The notes under the pieces are model-generated. The model saw nothing but the letters and a program-made list of their open reading frames with translations. It did not search any database and had not been told where the DNA came from. Below are positions 6,177-24,921 of a DNA stretch of 27,750 nucleotides, piece by piece. The stretch spans positions 1-27,750 of IMG/VR virus record IMGVR_UViG_3300046010_001424; one strand, given 5' to 3'. The stretch is from a virus. Numbering within the stretch: the stretch's first letter is position 1; every line of letters begins with the position of its first letter. The translations under genes were made by a program, and so were the position numbers.

Positions 6177-6935
6177 ATGGCTACAGTAGCACTATCTGGA
6201 ATCATCACGCCTACAAATGTTGTCACGGCAACAAGCACAACTACGCTGACTAATAAAACGATCAGCGGTGCAAGCAATACGCTTTCAAATATACCCCTAG
6301 CTACGGCTGTAACAGGTAACCTACCAGTAACAAATCTGAACTCAGGAACATCCGCTAGTTCGTCAACATTCTGGCGTGGTGATGGTACTTGGGCTGCTGC
6401 TGGTGGTGGTGCATGGACTCATCTGTCTACTGTAACTGCAAGCAATTCAGCAACAGTTGATATTGAAACCACATTTGATAGCACATACCAAAACTATGTA
6501 ATTGTTGCTTCATCAGTTAAACCAGTAGATAGTGTGGTTCAGTTACGAGCTAGACAAAAACAAAGTGGCTCATATGTAACTTCTGGTTATAAATACCACT
6601 TTACTAGAAGTAATGATACATCTACAACTTATGCCGCATCAGTGACTAGTGCTGGTAGTGAATATTTAGTAGCAGTAGATTTGTCTGCGCCTGGCGATGG
6701 CTCACATGGCGGTGTAAGTTTTGTAATGCATATACCAAATCCATCTAATACAACTTTACAAAAAGGCGTATTTTCTACTGGCGTGGCTCATTCTGCATAT
6801 CTTGATGTTGGGCAAATCACTTTGGCAGGTGCAAATACTGGCTCAACAGCAGCAGTAACAGGAATTAGATTTTTAATGGAATCAGGCAATATATCTACTG
6901 GCACATTCCGTTTGTACGGCATCAAGAATAGTTAA
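6177..6935 (+). CDS. Second tail fibre / receptor-binding protein (252 aa)
   Basis: Starts [19 protein letters not shown], followed by [18 protein letters not shown] and the module [17 protein letters not shown]...FWRGDGTW, which is nearly the same protein module as at 3986-4080 in the first fibre gene. From about residue 80 a different beta-rich domain begins ([21 protein letters not shown]...YVIVASSV), ending [11 protein letters not shown], a common terminal strand of jelly-roll-like phage fibre tips. GAGG at 6165-6168 precedes ATG 6177. The layout suggests a shared shaft joint with an exchangeable tip. The role as a second host-recognition fibre is inferred. Confidence 0.78.
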
Positions 6936-16186: not shown

Positions 16187-16387
16187 TTAAAAAGGGATTT
16201 GATCCCATTCCCAATGTTCGCACTCAACTGTGCCAGTAATCCACTCTAGCGGTGGTTTTGCTCCAAACTGCTTACAAATGCCTGTCTCAAAATTATTACA
16301 TTGTTGGCAGTTGATTCTGATTGTATTGATCTGTTTGACCTGACTGTCCAAATGCCTCTTGATTGCGTTTATTTCAATTAAATTCAT
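16187..16387 (-). CDS. Small Cys-rich (zinc-binding-like) protein (66 aa)
   Basis: The likely start is ATG 16387, which overlaps the helicase stop by 14 bases; a longer upstream reading lies wholly inside the helicase gene. Product: MNLIEINAIKRHLDSQVKQINTIRINCQQCNNFETGICKQFGAKPPLEWITGTVECEHWEWDQIPF. A helix is followed by CQQC, then GIC and VEC, giving a four-Cys C-x2-C-x7-C-x15-C pattern that could bind one metal ion. The end 'CEHWEWDQIPF' resembles small phage proteins I have seen in replication modules. Function unknown; coupling to the helicase suggests a helper. Confidence 0.74.
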   Translation of the reverse strand: MNLIEINAIKRHLDSQVKQINTIRINCQQCNNFETGICKQFGAKPPLEWITGTVECEHWEWDQIPF

Positions 16388-17984
16388 AGTCTTTGACCTC
16401 TGTGTATTTTCCATTTTTACGGGTTGCGATCCTAACTGGCTCTTCAATGTTTTTAAACTCAAGCCACTCAAGCGCTTCTTGTGTGCCTGATGGCATAGAC
16501 TTCTTCTCCCTTCGCATCCACCAGTTCTCGGCCTTTTGCCTAGCATAGCCAATGTGACTAAAACAAACCCATTCAGTCGCAACCCGAAGCAGGCCAGCGT
16601 AGTAGTCAACTCTCAATGAGTCTGGTTTGCCTTCCTTTCGGTGCAGGCCGTAGTCAACTCGGGTTACATCGTGCCAAATCAGTTCTGAGATGCTTGCCTG
16701 ATTCGACAAGAGCGCTGCCAATGAAACCCTTGCATCAATTGGTTTAGCCTCTTCTTCTCGGATTTGACCACCGCAATGAATGCAGACAAGAGCTGTCGGT
16801 GCATTGCGTTCACCGCAGTCTGGGCAGATGCTGTAGGGCGCTTCCTGTGGGCCTGACCTCTTCTTAGCCCTGCCTTGGATAGTATCCACTGGCCCAAGGC
16901 GCTCAACTGTGTCGGTGAAGTCAAGCACCAGGCAATCTGTCTTGCCGTCTGCAATTCGAGTACCCCTGCCCATGCCCTGCACATAAAGCACTGGCGACTT
17001 GGTTGGCCTGCACCAAATAATGCAGTCTACGTCTGGTACATCAAAGCCAACCGACAAAGCCAAGACAGTAACCAAGCAGTGAATCTCGCCATTCTTGAAC
17101 TGGCGAATCAGGTCTTCGCGCTCCTGCTTGGGGGTTTCACCACAAACAACGGCGCTTACGATCCCAAGTGCATTTAGCTTGTCAGACAGGCTTTCAGCGT
17201 TTTTGACACTCGGTGTAAAGGCAATCCATTTCTTGCGCTCTGAGGCGATTTTAGAGGCTTCTGTGGCTACTTTGGACAGGTATTTTTCAACCTCGCGGGA
17301 AAGTTCGCCAACTTTGTAGTCGCCATTGGCTATCCCAACATTGCTGGCATCGATGCGGGTTTCAATGTGATCTGGCGGGACAAGCGGCGCAATGAACTTG
17401 GCATCAAGCAATTCGCGCATGGACACTCGGCTTGCAATGCCTGTGAACAATGGCTCATCCCCATCGGTCAGCCAAACGCCATTGCCCCTAAAAGGCGTGG
17501 CGGTCATGCCAACAGTCCTGAACTCGCAAAGTTCGCCTAACTTGGACAAGAAGGTGCGGTACATCCCTGCATCCCCTGCCTTCTGGCTCACCAGATGAGC
17601 CTCATCGATCACCACAGCCTTGATGTTGCCAAGCAGGTGAGATGCTTTGTGGATGCTTCCAATGGTGGCAACAATCACATCTGCTTGGTGTTGCTTCTTT
17701 CCCAAGCTGGCGCTGACAAAGCCAACGCTGATGTTTGGGGGAAGCAAGGCTCTAAGTTTGGCAGCGTTCTGCTCGGCAAGTTCCTTGGACGGCACAAGCA
17801 CCACAGTTCGAGGGTGAAACAGAGGCCATTGATCCCACATTTGGCGCACAATCTCAGCGCAGATCACAGACTTGCCTGCGGCGGTGGGTAGCACTAGCAA
17901 GGGAATGTCGTGATCCTCTTGATGCTTTGTCCACCAAGCAAACAAGTCTGTAACTGCGCGAGACTGATACTCACGAAGGATCAA
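16374..17984 (-). CDS. DEAH-box superfamily 2 DNA helicase with zinc finger (536 aa)
   Basis: From TTG 17984 the protein begins MILREYQSRAVTDLFAWW. Motifs in order: Q-like LREYQ (3-7), Walker A PTAAGKS (33-39), DEAH (127-130), GMTATPF (motif III), then the second RecA lobe with QGMGRGTR (motif VI). A CPDCG...CIHCG zinc finger and a C-terminal domain follow. Family: UvsW/SSL2-like helicases, which unwind branched DNA or remodel forks. GAGGAG (17997-17992) lies 7 bases before TTG but only 1 base before GTG 17990, so TTG is preferred. Earlier starts would overlap the 62-aa upstream gene more deeply. It sits in the recombination operon, so a replication/recombination role is likely. Confidence 0.9.
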   Translation of the reverse strand: MILREYQSRAVTDLFAWWTKHQEDHDIPLLVLPTAAGKSVICAEIVRQMWDQWPLFHPRTVVLVPSKELAEQNAAKLRALLPPNISVGFVSASLGKKQHQADVIVATIGSIHKASHLLGNIKAVVIDEAHLVSQKAGDAGMYRTFLSKLGELCEFRTVGMTATPFRGNGVWLTDGDEPLFTGIASRVSMRELLDAKFIAPLVPPDHIETRIDASNVGIANGDYKVGELSREVEKYLSKVATEASKIASERKKWIAFTPSVKNAESLSDKLNALGIVSAVVCGETPKQEREDLIRQFKNGEIHCLVTVLALSVGFDVPDVDCIIWCRPTKSPVLYVQGMGRGTRIADGKTDCLVLDFTDTVERLGPVDTIQGRAKKRSGPQEAPYSICPDCGERNAPTALVCIHCGGQIREEEAKPIDARVSLAALLSNQASISELIWHDVTRVDYGLHRKEGKPDSLRVDYYAGLLRVATEWVCFSHIGYARQKAENWWMRREKKSMPSGTQEALEWLEFKNIEEPVRIATRKNGKYTEVKDYEFN

Positions 17985-18159
17985 AGTCACTCTCCTCAAG
18001 CATGGCATCTGCAATTGCATACGCCCTTTGTGCAATCTTTTTAGGATCATGCCACCATTTGTAGTTACTATCGTTCGCTCCTTGTTCGAGATCGCCAGCA
18101 AGAGCTTGCCCTGCAAAGTAGTCACGCAATGTAATTTTGTTAATTGATGGTGTTTTCAT
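17971..18159 (-). CDS. Small conserved phage protein in the recombination operon (62 aa)
   Basis: MKTPSINKITLRDYFAGQALAGDLEQGANDSNYKWWHDPKKIAQRAYAIADAMLEESDFDPS. The frame 'I.LRDYFAgqAL.g.l........iA..aY.iADAML..r' is a very common small phage protein with unknown function. It is coupled by ATGA (18156-18159) to the nuclease gene and overlaps the helicase start by 14 bases. It is all helical, with no metal or membrane motif. Confidence 0.82.
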   Translation of the reverse strand: MKTPSINKITLRDYFAGQALAGDLEQGANDSNYKWWHDPKKIAQRAYAIADAMLEESDFDPS

Positions 18160-19244
18160 ACAAATCTCGCATTATGTTGTTTACGTAAATCCAAAGCAAA
18201 CTCATCCACCAAGGCGGTCTTGTCTGTGCAGGCATGGATTTCTGCGCTACTGATGTGATCAAAGTTTTTGTCTGGATCGCCATTGATAAACTGTTTGCCA
18301 TCTGCCATTTTGTAGATCACATTGTCACTTTGATCAAGGTCAACTGGATGGCCTGTTTTGGCAAGCAAAATGGGAATATATCGATGATCATTGCAACCTT
18401 TTCGTTGCATTCCTTCTGACAAAACTGTGCTATGTGAAGCGCATGACCAAACTGCATTGCCGCCCAATTCAGGCGTGGCGTGAACGCATGAACGGCACGT
18501 TGGCATGGGGACATCTGTGCCGTGGCAAATAGCCTGGTAGTCGCAGAACTTGCACTCAAACCAAGTTGGATCGGTAGACACTCCAACTGGTGGCTCGGGT
18601 GCGGTGATCACAGCCATAGCTTTGTCAACCAGTGCTTGTGCCTCTTGCTTGTTGTACTCCAAGCGCTCGGTGTAAATGTCATCGTTGTCTTTGTTCACCA
18701 CAAAGTAAAGTGCCCTGCGGCATCCATCTTCCCCAAACTGATCAAGTGACCACTTCATGTATATTTGCATCTGCGCGTAGTGTTCGGGCTTGGCCTTCTT
18801 TACGCCATTTTTCTGCATATCTTTAAACATCTTGTCAGATGCGGTCTTGATCTCCAACAAGTGCGGAGACTTCGGCGCTTGCGGCAGGCCCGTGATGATG
18901 CCGTCCGCATTACCCTGAAAGTGGTGACCAGTTGCGGGTTCAGTGAATGACCACTGCTTGCCCGTGGTAGGGTTAATTTGGTAGACAGTGCAACCAATGG
19001 CTGCCAAGTCTGCATAAACTCTTGGCTCTTGCAAGTGACCAGACTGAAACACTCGGTAAAGCCTACCAGAGAACTGAGCAGGCTTAGACCACCGAAAAGA
19101 GTACCAATGTTGGCGCAGACAGGGCTTGCCAATGCTTGACGCACCAAGGTAGGGGCGTTGTAACTCTGAGCCAAACTTTGCCTTGTAGAAGGCAAAGATG
19201 GCATCAGCCACAGGATCAGAAACTGATTGTGGAAGTAAAGCCAT
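18156..19244 (-). CDS. Cas4/RecB-like PD-(D/E)XK nuclease with Fe-S-type cysteines (362 aa)
   Basis: Motifs: GASSIGKPCLRQHWYSF (Cys42), GNADGII (Asp114), LLEIKTAS (Glu131, Lys133) and HYAQMQIYM (Gln158/Gln160, Tyr162). Then CKFCDYQAIC follows (Cys231, 234, 240). Asp/Glu-x-Lys plus Gln-x3-Tyr is the PD-(D/E)XK core. One Cys before the core and three after match the 4Fe-4S ring of Cas4/AddB-type exonucleases. An extra Cys cluster (CRSCVHATPE...WSCASH, CNDH) lies beyond it. It sits between a DUF669 protein and a helicase, next to Sak4, a common phage recombination set. The probable role is resecting DNA ends to give single strands for annealing. It starts at TAATG on the DUF669 stop. Confidence 0.87.
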   Translation of the reverse strand: MALLPQSVSDPVADAIFAFYKAKFGSELQRPYLGASSIGKPCLRQHWYSFRWSKPAQFSGRLYRVFQSGHLQEPRVYADLAAIGCTVYQINPTTGKQWSFTEPATGHHFQGNADGIITGLPQAPKSPHLLEIKTASDKMFKDMQKNGVKKAKPEHYAQMQIYMKWSLDQFGEDGCRRALYFVVNKDNDDIYTERLEYNKQEAQALVDKAMAVITAPEPPVGVSTDPTWFECKFCDYQAICHGTDVPMPTCRSCVHATPELGGNAVWSCASHSTVLSEGMQRKGCNDHRYIPILLAKTGHPVDLDQSDNVIYKMADGKQFINGDPDKNFDHISSAEIHACTDKTALVDEFALDLRKQHNARFV

Positions 19245-19756
19245 TATTTTCTAGCCCAAGCAGGTGCTTTAGACTTGGCGGCTTCTTGCTCGGCGGTAGG
19301 CCATGCAGGGGCTTCAGCAACAGGCGCGGGAGTTGGTGCAGTAGCTGGTGCGCTAATGCCACCACCTGCGGCCTCATAGCCCTTGATGTTGTTACTGGCC
19401 TTGTACTGCCCGACTGCCTCGCGCACAGTCACATTGATGCGAACTGGCTTGAAGTGTAGGGCGGCGGTATCCATCAACTTGATGACATTCACCGCATGGC
19501 AAAGTGCAGACAACTGGCTTTGGGCAATGCGCTGAGTGTCTTCGCTACTGTGGCGAATGTTGAGATTCTCCCAAACCTTGCGGCCTTTGTGCTGACCATC
19601 AATGATTTCAAAGGTGAGTTTCAAGCCTTCGCCGTTGCCAGACTTCAAGGGCTGAACATCAGACTCAACAATGTGAGCCAGATAAACACCCGCAGGCAGT
19701 GGGCCTGTGGATGCTTGGGGTGCAATTTGGGATGCGTCAAAATTAAACTGAGCCAT
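19244..19756 (-). CDS. DUF669 family ssDNA-binding-like recombination protein (170 aa)
   Basis: MAQFNFDASQIAPQASTGPLPAGVYLAHIVESDVQPLKSGNGEGLKLTFEIIDGQHKGRKVWENLNIRH...: the 'f.fdas...p.....lPaG.Y...I..s..k..ksG.G..L.l.fei..G...Gr.vw..Lni' pattern is DUF669 (PF05037). This family is often found beside Sak4/Erf-type recombinases and annotated as single-strand binding or annealing. An OB-like core is followed by a Pro/Ala-rich tail ending APAWARK. It has its own site (AGGAAA, about 8 bases before ATG 19756). The direct DNA-binding function is known for relatives, not tested here. Confidence 0.85.
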   Translation of the reverse strand: MAQFNFDASQIAPQASTGPLPAGVYLAHIVESDVQPLKSGNGEGLKLTFEIIDGQHKGRKVWENLNIRHSSEDTQRIAQSQLSALCHAVNVIKLMDTAALHFKPVRINVTVREAVGQYKASNNIKGYEAAGGGISAPATAPTPAPVAEAPAWPTAEQEAAKSKAPAWARK

Positions 19757-19795
19757 GATAAATTTCCTAAAAAGTTAAGTTACGAACTGGGGTGA

Positions 19796-20542
19796 TCAAG
19801 ACTGCGCTTGGGTAAGCGCTGCTTGGAATGCCGTCCAGTCAAGCGGCATATTCTGAAGGCCAAAGCGGTTACCACCGCAATGAGCCGGATGGGGTTCAAC
19901 GTGCAAGATTCGCTCACCTGTTGTCGTGGCCTTGGTTTCTTTCTTAGAGAACCCTGCATCGGTCTTGCTTGTGAAGATGCGGTAGCCTGCGTAGCCAATG
20001 ACATCTGCCCACTCTTGGACTAGGCCAGCGGCCTTGTCGTGCAGTTTCAGGACATGGCTGTCATAGCCCTCGGTCAGCGGGTCTTCAATGCGCTTGATCT
20101 TGTCGTGAGCAATCAGGATGATGCCCATGCCCTTGGCAGAACGCAGGACTTCTAAGCCAGACAGAAGATTACGCCACTCCTCGGCGGCGGCAACGTAGCC
20201 CTTACCGAAGCCTGGTGCTTCAATGTTCTTCCAGTTATTCTGCTTGCACACATACTCTTGGATCATGGGTTCGAGCCAATCCAGACTGTCAATGAACAAG
20301 GTCTGGAAGTCATGGTCTTTGTTAATTAAGGTGTCGATGGCGGCATACACTTCCACCAAGCTAGAGGCCAGTGGGAAGGCGTTTGCGTCTACCGCATCAG
20401 CGCCGTCTTCGGTCAGGATGCCAATGGCGTTAGGCGACATGGCGGCAAAGGTGGTCTTGCCAATCTTGCCTTGGCCTACCACCACAATCTTGGGTGAGCG
20501 TACACGTTTGGTTTTAGAGATGGATGAGAGATCGAAGGCCAT
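19796..20542 (-). CDS. Sak4-like RecA-fold ATPase, single-strand annealing recombinase (248 aa)
   Basis: Opens MAFDLSSISKTKRVRSPKIVVVGQGKIGKTTFAAM: Walker A GQGKIGKTT (Gly23-Thr31). Walker B is TLFIDSLDW (Asp85, with Asp88 nearby). IILIAHDKIKRIEDP and HVLKLHDKAAGLVQEWADVIGYA follow. Short single-domain RecA/Rad51-like proteins with this 'GkTTFA...dsLdwLe...ahdk.k..eD' order are the Sak4 group (AAA_24, PF13479). They promote annealing and recombination with phage SSB-type partners. It starts one base after the upstream stop and is followed by the DUF669 partner. The length is typical. Confidence 0.88.
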   Translation of the reverse strand: MAFDLSSISKTKRVRSPKIVVVGQGKIGKTTFAAMSPNAIGILTEDGADAVDANAFPLASSLVEVYAAIDTLINKDHDFQTLFIDSLDWLEPMIQEYVCKQNNWKNIEAPGFGKGYVAAAEEWRNLLSGLEVLRSAKGMGIILIAHDKIKRIEDPLTEGYDSHVLKLHDKAAGLVQEWADVIGYAGYRIFTSKTDAGFSKKETKATTTGERILHVEPHPAHCGGNRFGLQNMPLDWTAFQAALTQAQS

Positions 20543-20543
20543 G

Positions 20544-20912
20544 TTAGTCTTTCAGTTCAATGGATGGTTTTGCGGGTTTGCTAGTTACGAACACTGCTGC
20601 CTTGTTGTAGGCGGAAGGGTCAATTTCTGAGAGGGAGCGAAGGTAAGCCAAGTTGACCTCGGCCTTCCATCTAAATGCTCTTTGGGCGTTGTCTGGCAGA
20701 TCGTCAAAATCAGCAGATAAACGATCTGTGTCCACTGAACGGGTGAGCTTCCAAGTGATAGTGAACTCTTCATCCTTGTGGACTCCTTCGCCAGATTGGG
20801 GTTTGGCGAATTGTTCTTCAATCAAGCCCTCAATGCGTAGGCGCTCGGCCTTGGCTTCGTTCTCGGCTTGCTTGGCCTTTCGTAGCAGTGTTGCCAGTTC
20901 AGAGATCGTCAT
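20544..20912 (-). CDS. Gp157/DUF7173-like small helical protein (122 aa)
   Basis: The best start is ATG 20912 (MTISELATLLRKAKQAENEAKAERLRIEGLIEEQFAKP...), overlapping the upstream stop by 14 bases; a further in-frame Met lies within the previous gene. An N-terminal coiled coil (about 5-35) is followed by a small beta-alpha domain with EEFTITWKLTRSVDTDRLSADFDDLPDNAQ. Small 'isELi..l....' coiled-coil proteins next to Sak4/DUF669 genes are annotated as Gp157 or DUF7173. The match is by layout only. It probably assists recombination or replication. Confidence 0.68.
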   Translation of the reverse strand: MTISELATLLRKAKQAENEAKAERLRIEGLIEEQFAKPQSGEGVHKDEEFTITWKLTRSVDTDRLSADFDDLPDNAQRAFRWKAEVNLAYLRSLSEIDPSAYNKAAVFVTSKPAKPSIELKD

Positions 20913-21174
20913 TTTTGTAGTCCTCAAGTGCGGTGGTTGTAATGTGGTCAACAAGGCCCTGCAAGAGCAAGTGACCAATGTCTATGTCTGTGCCTTTGAT
21001 GTAGGCGCTGACAAGTTCCATAGTTTCGGCGTAGTCAGGCTCATCAGATAAGCCACGGCTATCGAGTGCGCCAAGTTCTTCAGGGATGTACTCCAAGTGG
21101 CAAACCAGATCGACACCTTCGAGTTCGCAGGCAAACTCAATTAAACCTTGAGGGCAGGCGGGTGTGGGGTTCAT
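20899..21174 (-). CDS. Acidic small hypothetical protein (91 aa)
   Basis: MNPTPACPQGLIEFACELEGVDLVCHLEYIPEELGALDSRGLSDEPDYAETMELVSAYIKGTDIDIGHLLLQGLVDHITTTALEDYKNDDL: very acidic, three Cys near the start (7, 16 and 25), helical C-terminal half. The AGGAGA site about 6 bases upstream of ATG 21174 is clear, and the start overlaps the previous microprotein by 4 bases. Small proteins of this 'E.EL..e..Y.Pa..g......ep.y.E......GvDi..ll' type are common in phage early operons with unknown function. Strong acidity could suggest DNA mimicry, but this is only speculation. Confidence 0.74.
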   Translation of the reverse strand: MNPTPACPQGLIEFACELEGVDLVCHLEYIPEELGALDSRGLSDEPDYAETMELVSAYIKGTDIDIGHLLLQGLVDHITTTALEDYKNDDL

Positions 21175-21460: not shown

Positions 21461-21676
21461 TTAGGCTGCGGCTTGTTGAGCTATTTTGTTTTGTGCAAAA
21501 GAAAAACACATTTCATGGAGTTTGGAGTTTTTGCGAATTTTGCGGAAGTTTGAGTTTTCGTAAACTTCATTTTTAGTAGTGCCGTAGTTGTCAACAAATA
21601 CGCAATACTCAATATTGTTTTTTTCAACAACAACACTTGTGTGTCCGCAGGCTTGATCAATGCTGATAAGTTTCAT
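21461..21676 (-). CDS. First gene of the early minus-strand operon, unknown 71-aa protein
   Basis: ATG 21676 with AGGAAA about 5 bases upstream; a longer reading would start inside the leader hairpin region. Product: MKLISIDQACGHTSVVVEKNNIEYCVFVDNYGTTKNEVYENSNFRKIRKNSKLHEMCFSFAQNKIAQQAAA. It has a small beta-rich front and a basic helical end. No family recognised. Codon choice looks more A/T-rich than in the neighbouring genes (many AAA/AAT/TTT), suggesting separate acquisition. As the first gene after the putative regulated promoter it is probably the earliest expressed, so a regulatory or host-takeover role is possible. Confidence 0.65.
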   Translation of the reverse strand: MKLISIDQACGHTSVVVEKNNIEYCVFVDNYGTTKNEVYENSNFRKIRKNSKLHEMCFSFAQNKIAQQAAA

Positions 21677-21702
21677 TTTGTTTCCTATGGCCTTTCGGCG
21701 TG

Positions 21703-21728
21703 ATGCCAACAAACTATTTCGTTGGCAT
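21703..21728 (-). promoter_or_regulatory. Hairpin at the predicted 5' end of the early mRNA
   Basis: ATGCCAAC (21703-21710) and GTTGGCAT (21721-21728) form a perfect 8-bp stem with a 10-base loop. On the minus strand the predicted transcription start falls at about 21728, so the transcript would begin with this stem. A second small hairpin, GCC-GAAA-GGC with a GNRA loop, follows at about 21690-21699, just before the ribosome site. 5'-terminal stems can block 5'-end-dependent decay. Alternatively the DNA palindrome may be a protein site. Confidence 0.5.
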
Positions 21729-21734
21729 GGATTG

Positions 21735-21764
21735 ATTATCTAGCATCTTGCTAGGTATCGTCAA
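21735..21764 (-). promoter_or_regulatory. Sigma70-like promoter for the minus-strand early operon
   Basis: On the minus strand: -35 TTGACG (21764-21759, 5/6 to consensus), an 18-bp spacer, and -10 GATAAT (21740-21735, 5/6). The expected start is near 21728. It drives the replication/recombination genes beginning at 21676. Operator O1 lies in the spacer and O2 overlaps the -35, a layout typical of phage repressor control. Assigned by eye. Confidence 0.62.
21740..21754. promoter_or_regulatory. Operator-like palindrome O1
   Basis: CTAGCA-TCT-TGCTAG, a perfect palindrome with 6-bp arms and a 3-bp centre, placed in the spacer of the minus-strand promoter. It shares its pattern with O2 and O3. Binding by the YdaS-like protein at 21851 would block polymerase; this is inferred. 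Confidence 0.6.
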
Positions 21765-21776
21765 GCGTTTTGCTAG
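21762..21776. promoter_or_regulatory. Operator-like palindrome O2
   Basis: CAAGCG-TTT-TGCTAG, same pattern as O1 with two arm mismatches. Its centre is 22 bp from O1, about two helical turns, allowing cooperative binding on one DNA face. It overlaps the -35 of the minus-strand promoter. Confidence 0.58.
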
Positions 21777-21824
21777 AAATATTTAAATTATTTGTGTAGG
21801 TGCTTTCCCTAATGTCGTTTTGCT

Positions 21825-21839
21825 CAAGCAATCTGCTAG
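21825..21839. promoter_or_regulatory. Operator-like palindrome O3
   Basis: CAAGCA-ATC-TGCTAG, one arm mismatch. Its centre is 63 bp from O2, about six helical turns, and its end is 11 bases before the regulator ATG, so it may mediate autoregulation. An overlapping shorter palindrome TTGC-TCAA-GCAA lies at 21820-21831. No convincing plus-strand promoter could be defined nearby. Confidence 0.55.
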
Positions 21840-21850
21840 ACTTATTGGCT

Positions 21851-22066
21851 ATGAACACACAAATACCACCAGATGAGCGCCGACAACTGGCAGAAAAAGT
21901 TGGCATAAACGAGCAATATCTTTACCAGTGCCTGACAGGGCGCAGGGAGATGTCTGCATGGGAGGCTGTCAGAGTGGAGCAGCAGAGCGAAGGGCGGCTA
22001 ACTCGGCAAATGGTCTGTCAGGGCAGTTGGCAGTCTATTTGGCCTGAGTTGGTGGAGCAAACGTGA
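21851..22066 (+). CDS. YdaS/Cro-like helix-turn-helix transcriptional regulator (71 aa)
   Basis: The preferred start is ATG 21851; the frame also opens at 21800, but that would run across O3. Product: MNTQIPPDERRQLAEKVGINEQYLYQCLTGRREMSAWEAVRVEQQSEGRLTRQMVCQGSWQSIWPELVEQT. 'LAEKVGINEQYLYQCLTGRREMSAWEAVRVE' is a Cro/YdaS helix-turn-helix. The ending '.W..IWPEL' is characteristic of the YdaS group (PF15943), which act as Cro-like regulators in prophages despite the 'antitoxin' name. It is divergent from the early operon and next to three operators, so it likely controls both directions. No CI-type repressor or integrase is seen in this window. Confidence 0.8.
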   Translation: MNTQIPPDERRQLAEKVGINEQYLYQCLTGRREMSAWEAVRVEQQSEGRLTRQMVCQGSWQSIWPELVEQT

Positions 22067-22626
22067 ATGAGTTGGCTCTTTTCGCGGGCGCTGGTGGTGG
22101 AATACTTGGGGGAAAACTTCTCGGATGGCGAACAGTGTGCGCCGTTGAGTGGGAAGCCTATCCCGCAAGCGTATTGTGCGCCAGACAAAATGACGGCTTT
22201 CTCCCGCCTTTCCCGATATGGGATGACGTATGCTCCTTTGACGGAAAGCCGTGGAGAGGAATTGTTGACGTTGTATCGGGAGGCTTTCCATGTACCGACA
22301 TTTCCGCAGCAGGAAAAGGAGCAGGAATTGATGGAGAAGCCTCTGGAATGTGGCGAGAAATGGCGAGGATCATTTGTGAAGTACAGCCTCAATTCGTCTT
22401 CGTGGAAAACTCACCAATGCTCACTTCTCGGGGACTTGGACGAGTTCTTGGAGACTTGGCCTCGATGGGGTTTGATGCGCGGTGGGGAGTGTTGGGAGCA
22501 GCAGACGTTGGTGCAGTCCACCAAAGGGATCGTATTTGGATTGTCGCAGAGTTACCCCCCCCCCCTCGAAATGGCCTACACCAACAGCAACAGATTGGAA
22601 AGCGACAGGCAAATTGGAAACATTAA
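22063..22626 (+). CDS. C5 cytosine DNA methyltransferase, N-terminal two-thirds; frame broken at an 11-C tract
   Basis: Starts MNELALFAGAGGGILGGKLLGW: motif I. Further motifs: GGFPCTD (catalytic Cys77, motif IV), VFVENSP (Glu115, motif VI) and HQRDRIWIVAE (Gln154-Arg157, motif VIII). These give the AdoMet-binding and catalytic core that transfers methyl to cytosine C5. After LPPPP the literal frame ends in a 20-residue non-homologous tail at 22626. The target-recognition region and motif X are therefore missing, so the 187-aa product should be inactive. The break coincides with C11 at 22555-22565. The start overlaps the regulator stop by 4 bases. See the downstream entry for the alternative endings. 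Confidence 0.85.
   Translation: MNELALFAGAGGGILGGKLLGWRTVCAVEWEAYPASVLCARQNDGFLPPFPIWDDVCSFDGKPWRGIVDVVSGGFPCTDISAAGKGAGIDGEASGMWREMARIICEVQPQFVFVENSPMLTSRGLGRVLGDLASMGFDARWGVLGAADVGAVHQRDRIWIVAELPPPPRNGLHQQQQIGKRQANWKH
22555..22565 (+). repeat. 11-cytosine homopolymer at the methyltransferase frame break
   Basis: Eleven consecutive C. With 9 or 12 C the core reads into the 22563-22838 ending. With 10 C it reads into the other frame, ending at 22831. With 11 C, as given, it stops at 22626. Long C-runs are classic slippage sites, and also classic places for sequencing or assembly error. Confidence 0.8.
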
Positions 22627-22838
22627 AACGGCAAGGAAACAATTTCGAGGCAGGTGGACAAAATCGTCCTCAATATCATTACTCACGCCTTATGAACATG
22701 AAAATGCCTGTAAGTGCGTCAGAGATGCTGATGTTGTGGCCTATCGAGTGGACAGACTTAAAGCCATTGGAAACGGACAAGTTCCAGCAGTGGCAGCAAC
22801 AGCATGGAAATTACTCAGTGAAAGAATTTAATGACTAA
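22563..22838 (+). pseudogene. C-terminal part of the methyltransferase in a shifted frame
   Basis: In the frame reached with 9 or 12 C, codons from 22563 read PSKWPTPTATDWKATGKLETL, then RQGNNFEAGGQNRPQYHYSRLM, and end with MLWPIEWTDLKPLETDKFQQW...; TAA is at 22836-22838. 'WPTPTA.DWK' and 'WPi.WTDLKPLe.DKFqqW' match endings I recall in phage C5 methyltransferases. The third frame (10 C; open 22067-22831) reads MAYTNSNRLESDR and then RLKAIGNGQVPAVAATAW, which is motif X. Without a start of its own this stretch is not a separate gene. It is either a broken gene, an assembly artefact or the alternative 'on' ending. Confidence 0.6.
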
Positions 22839-24921
22839 CCTAACAACAATTTTCCCCAATGGCTTTGCCGTAGCAACAGAGAGCCAAGACTTGATCAACC
22901 CTGAAGAGGGGTTTCGCAGGCACTGTGAGGCTGCGGGTCTTGTGATCAAAGACCAGATCGTGGCAGATGGTGAGATTCACAGGGTGGCTCATGTATCGAG
23001 CAAGAAGGGTGCATTGGATGGTTGGTACATCCTGCACTCCAGTGGCAAAGTGCCTGTGGGCATTGCAGGGTGCTGGAAAGAGCCAGTGTTTGAGAGTAAG
23101 TGGGTAGCAGATACTGGCAGGCAGATGTCGTTCACTGAGCGCTTTGAGCATGACAAGTGGATAGCAGATGTCAAGGCCAAGAAAGAGGCTGACAGGCTGG
23201 CTTCGCAGGCCGTGGCTGCCGAACGTGCAGAGGATGAGGTTGGGACGTATGCAGATGCGTCTGATGATCATCCATACCTTGTGAGGAAGCACATTCAAGC
23301 GCATGGGATCAAGATTGATCGTGCAGGCAGGCTTGTTGTGCCTGTGATCAACCAAGGTGGGGAAATCCTGAGTTATCAGACCATTGATGCAGATGGCAAC
23401 AAGCGGTTCTTAAAGGGTGGCAAGATCGAGGGTGGGTTTTATGAACTCAGGGGTAACAGAAAGATTGTGTTCATTGGTGAGGGTTTTGCAACCTGCGCCA
23501 GTATCCATGAGGCAACAGACTACACAGTGTTGGTGGCGTTTGATTGTGGGAACTTAGCCAAGGTAGCGAAGAGCGCCAAAGAGATGTTCCCAGGCTCGAA
23601 GATCATCATCGGTGCAGACAATGACCAGTTCACAGAAGGCAACCCTGGTGTGGCGAAAGGCAGGGCTGCGGCGGCTCTGGTGTTTGGGGAGATTGTTTAC
23701 CCATCATTTGGAGAGTCTGACATGGTGGACAACAAACCAACAGACTTCAATGACCTGCACTGCCTGCAAGGTCTGGATGCGGTCAAAGAGCAGATCGAGC
23801 GCGTAGCAGGCCCAATGCGTGACAAACTGGCGTTTGAGTTCACTCGGGCAGATAACTTACAACTTAGCCAGATCAACTGGATTGTGGATGACTACATTGA
23901 AAGTGACTCCCTAGCGCAAGTGTTCGGTGACCCAGGCGGTGGTAAGTCGTTTGTCTCCATCGACATAGCTTGTTGCGTAGCAACAGGAAAGCCTTGGCAT
24001 GGGCATGAGGTCAAGCAAGGCAGTGTGTTCTACATTGCCGGAGAAGGGCATAACGGCCTTGCGAGGCGGTTTAAGGCTTGGCAGTTGGGTAATGGGCAAA
24101 CCTTGGATGGAGCGCCGTTATACAAAAGCCATAGGGCAGCGCAGTTGTACGATGCAACCGAGGCGGCTGTTGTGGCTGAGAGCATCAAGGAGCTGTCAGC
24201 GCAAGCAGGAACTGTCCCTAGCCTGATCATCATTGACACTCTAGCGCGTAACCACGGCGGTGATGAGAACTCCACCCAAGACATGAATGCCTTTATCCAG
24301 CATCTGGATGTCTATCTGCGCCAACCTTGGAAATGCTGTGTCTTGGTGGTTCACCATTCAGGCGTGGCAGACAAGGATCGGTCTAGAGGAAGCACCGCCC
24401 TGAAGGGTGCGCTTGATGCTGAATATCGTTGCCAATTGGATTCGGGAACTAAAACCATAGCCTTTGAGTCCAAAAAGATGAAGGATGCAGAGATGCCTGC
24501 ACCCAAGAACTTTCAGATCACTCAGGTTGACCTGCCCATCCAAGACAAAAACGGCGCGCCAGTTCGGGGTGCATACCTCACGGCGGTGGACATCAGCGGC
24601 CTGACTAACTCAATCCAGAAGAAAACCTATCTCGCAGGCAACCAAAGGAAAACCCTAGACTGCTTGGTTTCAATCCAAATGAACCATGAAAAGAATGGCA
24701 TTGTGGACTTGGTGACCTACGATGAGTGGCGCGAATCTGCCAAAGAACATGGCATCAAGTCCAACAGGTTTAGGGAAGTTGTGGACAGTTTGGTCAAAAA
24801 ATTACTGGTTCTTGAGGACTCCAAAGGCTATAGAATTAAGCCAAATGATGGGAAGATGATTGAACCGAAACTTACCGAATCGGTAACCGAATCGGCTAAT
24901 TCGGTTGAACCGAAACTATGA
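22831..24921 (+). CDS. Primase-helicase: TOPRIM domain fused to RepA-like hexameric helicase (696 aa)
   Basis: N-terminal unit about 1-200 (no CHC2 zinc finger visible; HSSGKVPVGIAGCWK and a helical linker). TOPRIM about 210-330: VFIGEGFAT (Glu217), GADND (Asp263/Asp265), FNDLH. RepA/AAA_25 helicase about 350-560: GDPGGGKSF (Walker A, Lys372), SLIIIDTLARN (Walker B), HHSG and RGSTALKGALDAEY. The C-terminus has HTH-like helices, then a repetitive TESVTES tail caused by DNA repeats. It would make primers and unwind DNA at the phage fork. ATG 22831 overlaps the methyltransferase end. Confidence 0.9.
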   Translation: MTNLTTIFPNGFAVATESQDLINPEEGFRRHCEAAGLVIKDQIVADGEIHRVAHVSSKKGALDGWYILHSSGKVPVGIAGCWKEPVFESKWVADTGRQMSFTERFEHDKWIADVKAKKEADRLASQAVAAERAEDEVGTYADASDDHPYLVRKHIQAHGIKIDRAGRLVVPVINQGGEILSYQTIDADGNKRFLKGGKIEGGFYELRGNRKIVFIGEGFATCASIHEATDYTVLVAFDCGNLAKVAKSAKEMFPGSKIIIGADNDQFTEGNPGVAKGRAAAALVFGEIVYPSFGESDMVDNKPTDFNDLHCLQGLDAVKEQIERVAGPMRDKLAFEFTRADNLQLSQINWIVDDYIESDSLAQVFGDPGGGKSFVSIDIACCVATGKPWHGHEVKQGSVFYIAGEGHNGLARRFKAWQLGNGQTLDGAPLYKSHRAAQLYDATEAAVVAESIKELSAQAGTVPSLIIIDTLARNHGGDENSTQDMNAFIQHLDVYLRQPWKCCVLVVHHSGVADKDRSRGSTALKGALDAEYRCQLDSGTKTIAFESKKMKDAEMPAPKNFQITQVDLPIQDKNGAPVRGAYLTAVDISGLTNSIQKKTYLAGNQRKTLDCLVSIQMNHEKNGIVDLVTYDEWRESAKEHGIKSNRFREVVDSLVKKLLVLEDSKGYRIKPNDGKMIEPKLTESVTESANSVEPKL

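Follow-up and report, generated by a model that had tools for sequence, protein, structure and literature searches.

A conserved early control region with three operators and a single YdaS/Cro-like regulator in a freshwater-type tailed phage

Introduction

We analyzed the early control region of the window, a 27,750-base record that represents a whole viral contig. Sequence comparison suggests that this region most probably mediates a Cro-only shut-off of early transcription in a lytic-type, freshwater-type tailed phage, rather than a bistable switch. In the mechanism that we propose, a leftward PL-like promoter would drive a recombination operon (Sak4, an SSB-like protein, a Cas4-type exonuclease and a helicase), and a rightward PR-like promoter, placed back to back with it, would drive the regulator, followed by a primase-helicase. 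The regulator, a 71-aa YdaS/Cro-like protein probably translated from a leaderless mRNA, would bind CTAGC-N5-GCTAG as a dimer. Occupation of operators O1 and O2 would block the leftward −10 and −35 elements and occupation of O3 would block the regulator's own −10, such that accumulation of the regulator would turn early transcription off. Protection of the leftward mRNA is the most likely role of its 5′ hairpin, and a conserved element, TAGGTG...CCCTAATG, is most likely bound by a factor that activates the rightward promoter.

Results

We first describe the three operators. A sequence-only reading of this DNA had claimed three copies of a 15-bp pattern, and exact matches of the form CWAGC-N5-GCTAG were indeed recovered as O1 (CTAGCATCTTGCTAG, 21740–21754), O2 (CAAGCGTTTTGCTAG, 21762–21776) and O3 (CAAGCAATCTGCTAG, 21825–21839), at the center spacings of 22 bp (O1–O2) and 63 bp (O2–O3) that it had given. 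A search of the entire 27,750-base record, which that reading had called for, returned these three sites as the only exact matches. Three similar 5-N5-5 dyads come together in 110 bp at a single place in the window, O1–O3, and nowhere in 100 shuffled versions of it (first-order Markov). O1 overlaps the spacer and −10 of the leftward promoter, the left arm of O2 overlaps its minus-strand −35 TTGACG, and the right arm of O3 coincides with the extended −10 of a rightward promoter.

Scans of viral contigs yielded 126 usable regulator-containing loci, among which 69 upstream regions were distinct, and conservation was counted over 68 of these, with L142 (59%-identical) set aside. The operator arms were nearly invariant across the 68 regions and the central N5 was variable. 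The right-arm GCTAGA of O3 was present in all 68; in O2, the CAA arm and the GT before it were conserved, as a −35 TTGAC demands. In a few relatives, the L057 group, the TTGAC −35 is missing and O1 and O2 are degenerate. The control region is thus, as judged from these alignments, real and strongly conserved in many related phages. The proposal that the operators lie on one helical face holds for O1–O2, which are 22 bp apart in the relatives, or 21 bp in one subgroup, across all relatives measured. It does not extend fully to O2–O3, where the spacing is variable: 54 or 63 bp predominate, and 52, 53, 62, 66 and 67 bp occur in a few relatives. Most of these spacings fall close to a whole number of turns; two do not. 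The length change between relatives falls between O2 and the TAGGTG element, not between this element and O3.

A scan of the window recovered the leftward promoter as TTGACG-N18-GATAAT on the minus strand, with the −35 TTGACG at 21759–21764 and the −10, either TAGATA or GATAAT, at 21735–21742. This supports the minus-strand promoter of the sequence-only reading, as does the presence of TTGACA/G/C in 59 of 68 relatives. Because relatives that are two bases shorter retain the conserved form TTGACA-N16-TAGAAT, the O1-overlapping TAGATA is an equally plausible −10 for the window; over the 68 relatives, the −10 reads TAGAAT (41) or TAGATA(AT) (27). In the upstream regions of the relatives, the −35 and −10 likewise overlap O2 and O1. 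The placement of O2 on a promoter element was therefore correct, and O1, described as lying between the elements, in fact covers the −10 and the spacer.

The predicted leftward transcript begins with a stable hairpin (21703–21728, minus strand), whose claimed perfect 8-bp stem, ATGCCAAC/GTTGGCAT, is present and extends to 11 pairs. The folding energy of the leader is −18 kcal/mol (z −3.9). Almost every one of 61 relatives forms a hairpin at the same place, built from alternative stems (GCCAAC/GTTGGC or GGCAGGG/CTCTGTC) around a conserved loop core, GAAATnGTT. Covariation was modest, with 2 of 9 pairs covarying in the consensus fold. On this comparative evidence, the hairpin at the predicted 5′ end is conserved as a structure. 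A second, small stem-loop, GCC-GAAA-GGC (21690–21699, minus strand), with a GNRA-like tetraloop, lies just before the ribosome-binding site and shows one compensatory change, in L128.

Transcripts from lambdoid PL promoters begin with nut or put sites. The neighboring stem-loops with which the leftward transcript would start, carrying the GAAATnGTT loop core and the GNRA-like tetraloop, might by analogy form an antitermination signal of the nut or put type and not only a stabilizing cap. We consider this rather unlikely, as an Rfam search with the leader stem-loops gave no match, the small stem abuts the ribosome-binding site, and terminators are not established in the leftward operon. We retain mRNA protection as the most likely role of the 5′ hairpin.

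The first leftward gene (21461–21676, minus strand; 71 aa from its ATG) is an open frame with a ribosome-binding site and gave no informative Pfam or PHROG match; a Shine-Dalgarno sequence precedes it in 64 of 68 relatives. The leftward early operon (16374–21174, minus strand) encodes DUF7173, a Sak4-like annealing protein, an SSB-like DUF669 protein, a Cas4-type exonuclease and a helicase. Just past the leftward ribosome-binding site, the sequence varies widely among relatives while the control region is constant, which suggests exchangeable early cargo genes.

O3 belongs to a second, rightward promoter that the sequence-only reading did not recognize. Its extended −10, TGC-TAGACT (21834–21842, plus strand), lies 8 nt ahead of the regulator ATG, and TGC-TAGACT or TGC-TAGAGT was found in the right arm of O3, 8–9 nt from the ATG, in 68 of 68 relatives. 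Given this short distance and the absence of a Shine-Dalgarno-like sequence before the regulator in all relatives (0/68), the regulator mRNA is likely leaderless. The rightward promoter has no conserved −35 across the relatives, and we propose that an activating factor acts at the TAGGTG element. The rightward operon continues with a TOPRIM primase-helicase gene (22831–24921, plus strand). A DNA cytosine methyltransferase gene that follows the regulator (22063–22831) is split by a frame change in the window, and also in L004 and L116, and is in a single frame in L017, L053 and L008; it occurs in only 41 of the 126 loci, and the frame change may reflect decay or an assembly error.

Next, we consider the regulator itself (21851–22066, plus strand; 71 aa), whose ATG at 21851 places O3 just before the YdaS-like gene, as had been reported. 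Comparison with PF15943 gave E 1.2e-4 and 22.2 bits, under the curated cut-off of 30 for membership, and a regulator profile matched the solved YdaS chains PDB 8co2/8c7k with E about 1e-9. The top three Foldseek matches of a structure model, which was only moderately confident (pLDDT 76.8), were YdaS chains (TM 0.68–0.69), with that of CP-933P first, and the model accordingly predicts a helical HTH fold like that of CP-933P YdaS. The gene occupies the cro position, first in the rightward early operon and divergent from the leftward operon. Together, these comparisons identify the protein as a distant relative of YdaS, a Cro analogue. In its own immunity region, YdaS of CP-933P leaves footprints at both promoters, and it has been assigned as a Cro analogue (PMC8630535), and Rac carries three similar repeats between racR and ydaS (PMC5700373).

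The Pfam family name "Bacterial toxin YdaS" and the slowed growth upon ectopic expression of Rac YdaS (PMC5700373) would fit a YdaS-type toxin, with the operators as part of a toxin module. This is highly improbable, considering that YdaS has been reassigned as a Cro analogue (PMC8630535), that the regulator is a solitary gene flanked by early operons and lacking an antitoxin partner, and that the operators are placed on phage promoters.

The sequence of the operators appears to follow the recognition helix of the adjoining regulator. Regulators with an EQYLYQCL helix go with CTAGC-N5-GCTAG, also in Burkholderiales loci whose proteins are 44–66% identical and which retain the operator ahead of the ATG, and the YLR-helix YdaS-like Cro proteins of PseuP_224 and mEp043 both go with TTACC-N4-GGTAA. 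L148 is an exception, as its recognition helix is kept, yet its arms read CTAGAT; the relationship is a correlation. Double-operator loci in viral contigs contained the regulator gene in 48 of 64 cases, and the 16 without it were dismissed as TGCTAGC repeats or chance. The operators are palindromic, as many host sites are, and another conserved element of this region may well be one, such that the operators might themselves be sites for a host protein with the regulator adjoining them incidentally. We regard this as very improbable indeed, because the dyads change with the recognition helix in phages that have other Cro-type genes, and because most double-operator loci adjoin the regulator gene, the others resembling repeats. 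Binding by the regulator remains our preferred interpretation.

Tandem TGCTAGC repeats were also noted in the viral contigs L091, L099, L109, L115 and L134; several are followed by a purine-rich GAGAAGAG tract, some lie within apparent coding sequence, and they may be replication origins (iterons).

Six relatives (G003, G004, G008, G011, G012 and G013) carry an identical extra operator, CTAGCATATTGCTAG, that the sequence-only reading had missed. The site, at another leftward start, lies where the conserved leftward operon ends, about 5.5–5.9 kb away in the measurable cases. It adjoins or overlaps the end of a small gene, and a TAGANT-like −10 comes next, along with variable small genes. In L151–L156 (near 950–1010), this fourth operator falls at the end of a 65–67 aa gene. 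No counterpart with up to 2 mismatches was found in the window near 16.2 kb.

We then looked for the partners that a switch would need. No S24 CI, tyrosine integrase (PF00589), serine recombinase/resolvase (PF00239) or second HTH_3 gene was found in 16 relatives of 33–39 kb. A search with the L146-type CI-like protein, which had no positive control, gave no match. As linear contigs with no estimate of completeness, the window and its relatives could in some cases stop short of a CI or integrase gene, and the CI searches used would overlook a non-S24 repressor from an unknown family. Related roseophages are missing integrases, and a strictly lytic life cycle has been suggested for them (PMC12629253).

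With these results, the earlier statement that the region is a one-repressor switch rather than a CI/Cro pair can be divided. A single YdaS-like regulator without CI is what we find; "switch" is probably wrong, because without CI and integrase the region resembles Cro-type early shut-off with autoregulation. A true one-repressor switch between lysis and lysogeny or pseudolysogeny, with the regulator acting as a CI analogue to impose long silence, could draw on cooperative binding at O1 and O2, which are 22 bp apart, and on the presence of operators on all early promoters, including the distal one in the six relatives. It appears quite unlikely nonetheless, given the lack of CI and integrase genes in the 16 long records, a 71-aa protein too small for an oligomerization or cleavage domain, and YdaS homologues that are experimentally Cro analogues (PMC8630535).

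In three Burkholderiales loci (L144, L146 and L147), a divergent HTH gene and a YdaS-like gene are separated by three operators, spaced at about 24 and 22 bp; the divergent gene of L147 is an S24 CI. Comparison of these arrangements suggests that the region derives from a lambda-type CI/Cro intergenic region from which the CI gene was lost, and that the window phage is CI-less.

Finally, we characterized the 18-bp TAGGTG element, TAGGTGCTTTCCCTAATG (TAGGTGYTTTCCCTAATG; 21797–21814, plus strand), which lies between O2 and O3 and had not been noticed in the sequence-only reading. It stands about 44 bp ahead of the rightward start that we predict; TAGGTGYTTTCCCTA likewise falls between O2 and O3. 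The element was present in 61 of 69 upstream regions, at a constant distance to O3 in 60 of these 61. In L006 and L011 it is absent, with CCCTTAAGGG at the corresponding place and a changed O3 left arm. The 18-bp form was found in at least 120 stretches of viral contigs versus 8 for a reversed control. Among the matches to TAGGTGYTTTCCCTA in other phages, 43 of 105 were non-coding, compared with 2 of 88 in the reversed control; AT or GT came next in 53 of 105 and 5 of 88, respectively. The largest other group of downstream genes encodes a 50-aa Cro-like protein (20 contexts), and the distance from the element start to its ATG is often the same, about 53 nt. Most contigs that share the element do so without the replication genes of the window phage. 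By these counts, the element is enriched in phages, including those with unrelated replication genes.

TAGGTGYTTTCCCTAATG recurs in the unrelated contigs L159, L172, L199, L161 and L518, among many others, often within a divergent control region ahead of a small Cro-like gene; L518 holds the form TAGGTACTTTCCCTAATC at 6856–6870.

Regarding the owner of TAGGTG...CCCTA, the CrbR/ACTU motif was rejected, since the acs promoter primers in the corresponding paper show an ACCAT...ATGGT repeat instead, and a search for the exact element text in papers gave no match. A host regulon was likewise set aside: 301 Burkholderiaceae genomes gave 18 matches versus 1 for the control, scattered and partly in open frames. 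A 17-bp form had 3 matches in 399 Burkholderiales genomes, and with one mismatch allowed the element was only weakly in excess, in one genus. As matches are rare in Burkholderiales and scattered, no host regulon is established for the element.

Discussion

The system closest to the one described here is CP-933P of E. coli O157:H7 (PaaR2/YdaS/YdaT; PMC8630535), which shares a YdaS-type Cro analogue on divergent early promoters and several dyad operators overlapping both promoters, and which provides the nearest solved structures (8co2 and 8c7k). Both have a leaderless first gene on one side, paaR2 in CP-933P and, by prediction, the regulator itself here. Unlike CP-933P, the window phage has no CI-type partner and no CII/YdaT, and its operator is CTAGC-N5-GCTAG. 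The lambda PL/PR, OL/OR and Cro system is similar in its divergent early operons (recombination leftward, replication rightward), its small Cro-type HTH protein and its three operators. It differs in that the window phage has no cI-rex block, PL and PR stand back to back within about 180 bp, and an integrase was not found in the relatives. Neither a second CI-type repressor nor integration functions, which define a bistable lambda-type CI/Cro switch, were detected in the relatives.

The one-regulator layout is already known from the cultured Alteromonas phage PB15, Idiomarinaceae phage 1N2-2 and Salicola phage CGphi29, which carry Sak4/Cas4/helicase genes leftward and one Cro-family gene followed by a primase rightward. 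Their regulators belong to different Cro subfamilies, that of PB15 being a YdaS-family member, with no obvious shared operators, and the TAGG-N7-CCTA element was not seen in the intergenic sequences of these phages that we inspected. The Burkholderiales immunity regions L144, L146 and L147 share the regulator family, the operator half-sites and the number of operators, and differ by the presence of the divergent HTH or S24 CI gene; the TAGGTG element was absent from the upstream regions of these loci that we inspected.

We thus view the region as a small, testable lambda-type immunity region that appears reduced to its Cro half. The Burkholderiales loci would represent living intermediates, in which a divergent repressor-type gene still stands beside the same operators. 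The region also illustrates that a single half-site, GCTAGA, is able to double as operator and −10 element. Beyond this phage group, we see about an even chance that TAGGTGYTTTCCCTAATG is a common early-promoter element of several unrelated aquatic phage lineages, positioned at a set distance ahead of differing cro-like genes that are probably leaderless, and read by a factor on which all of them can rely, with Cro proteins and operators swapped around a constant activating core. The shared 18-bp element offers a direct handle on this factor, which may be responsible for initiating early transcription across many aquatic phages.
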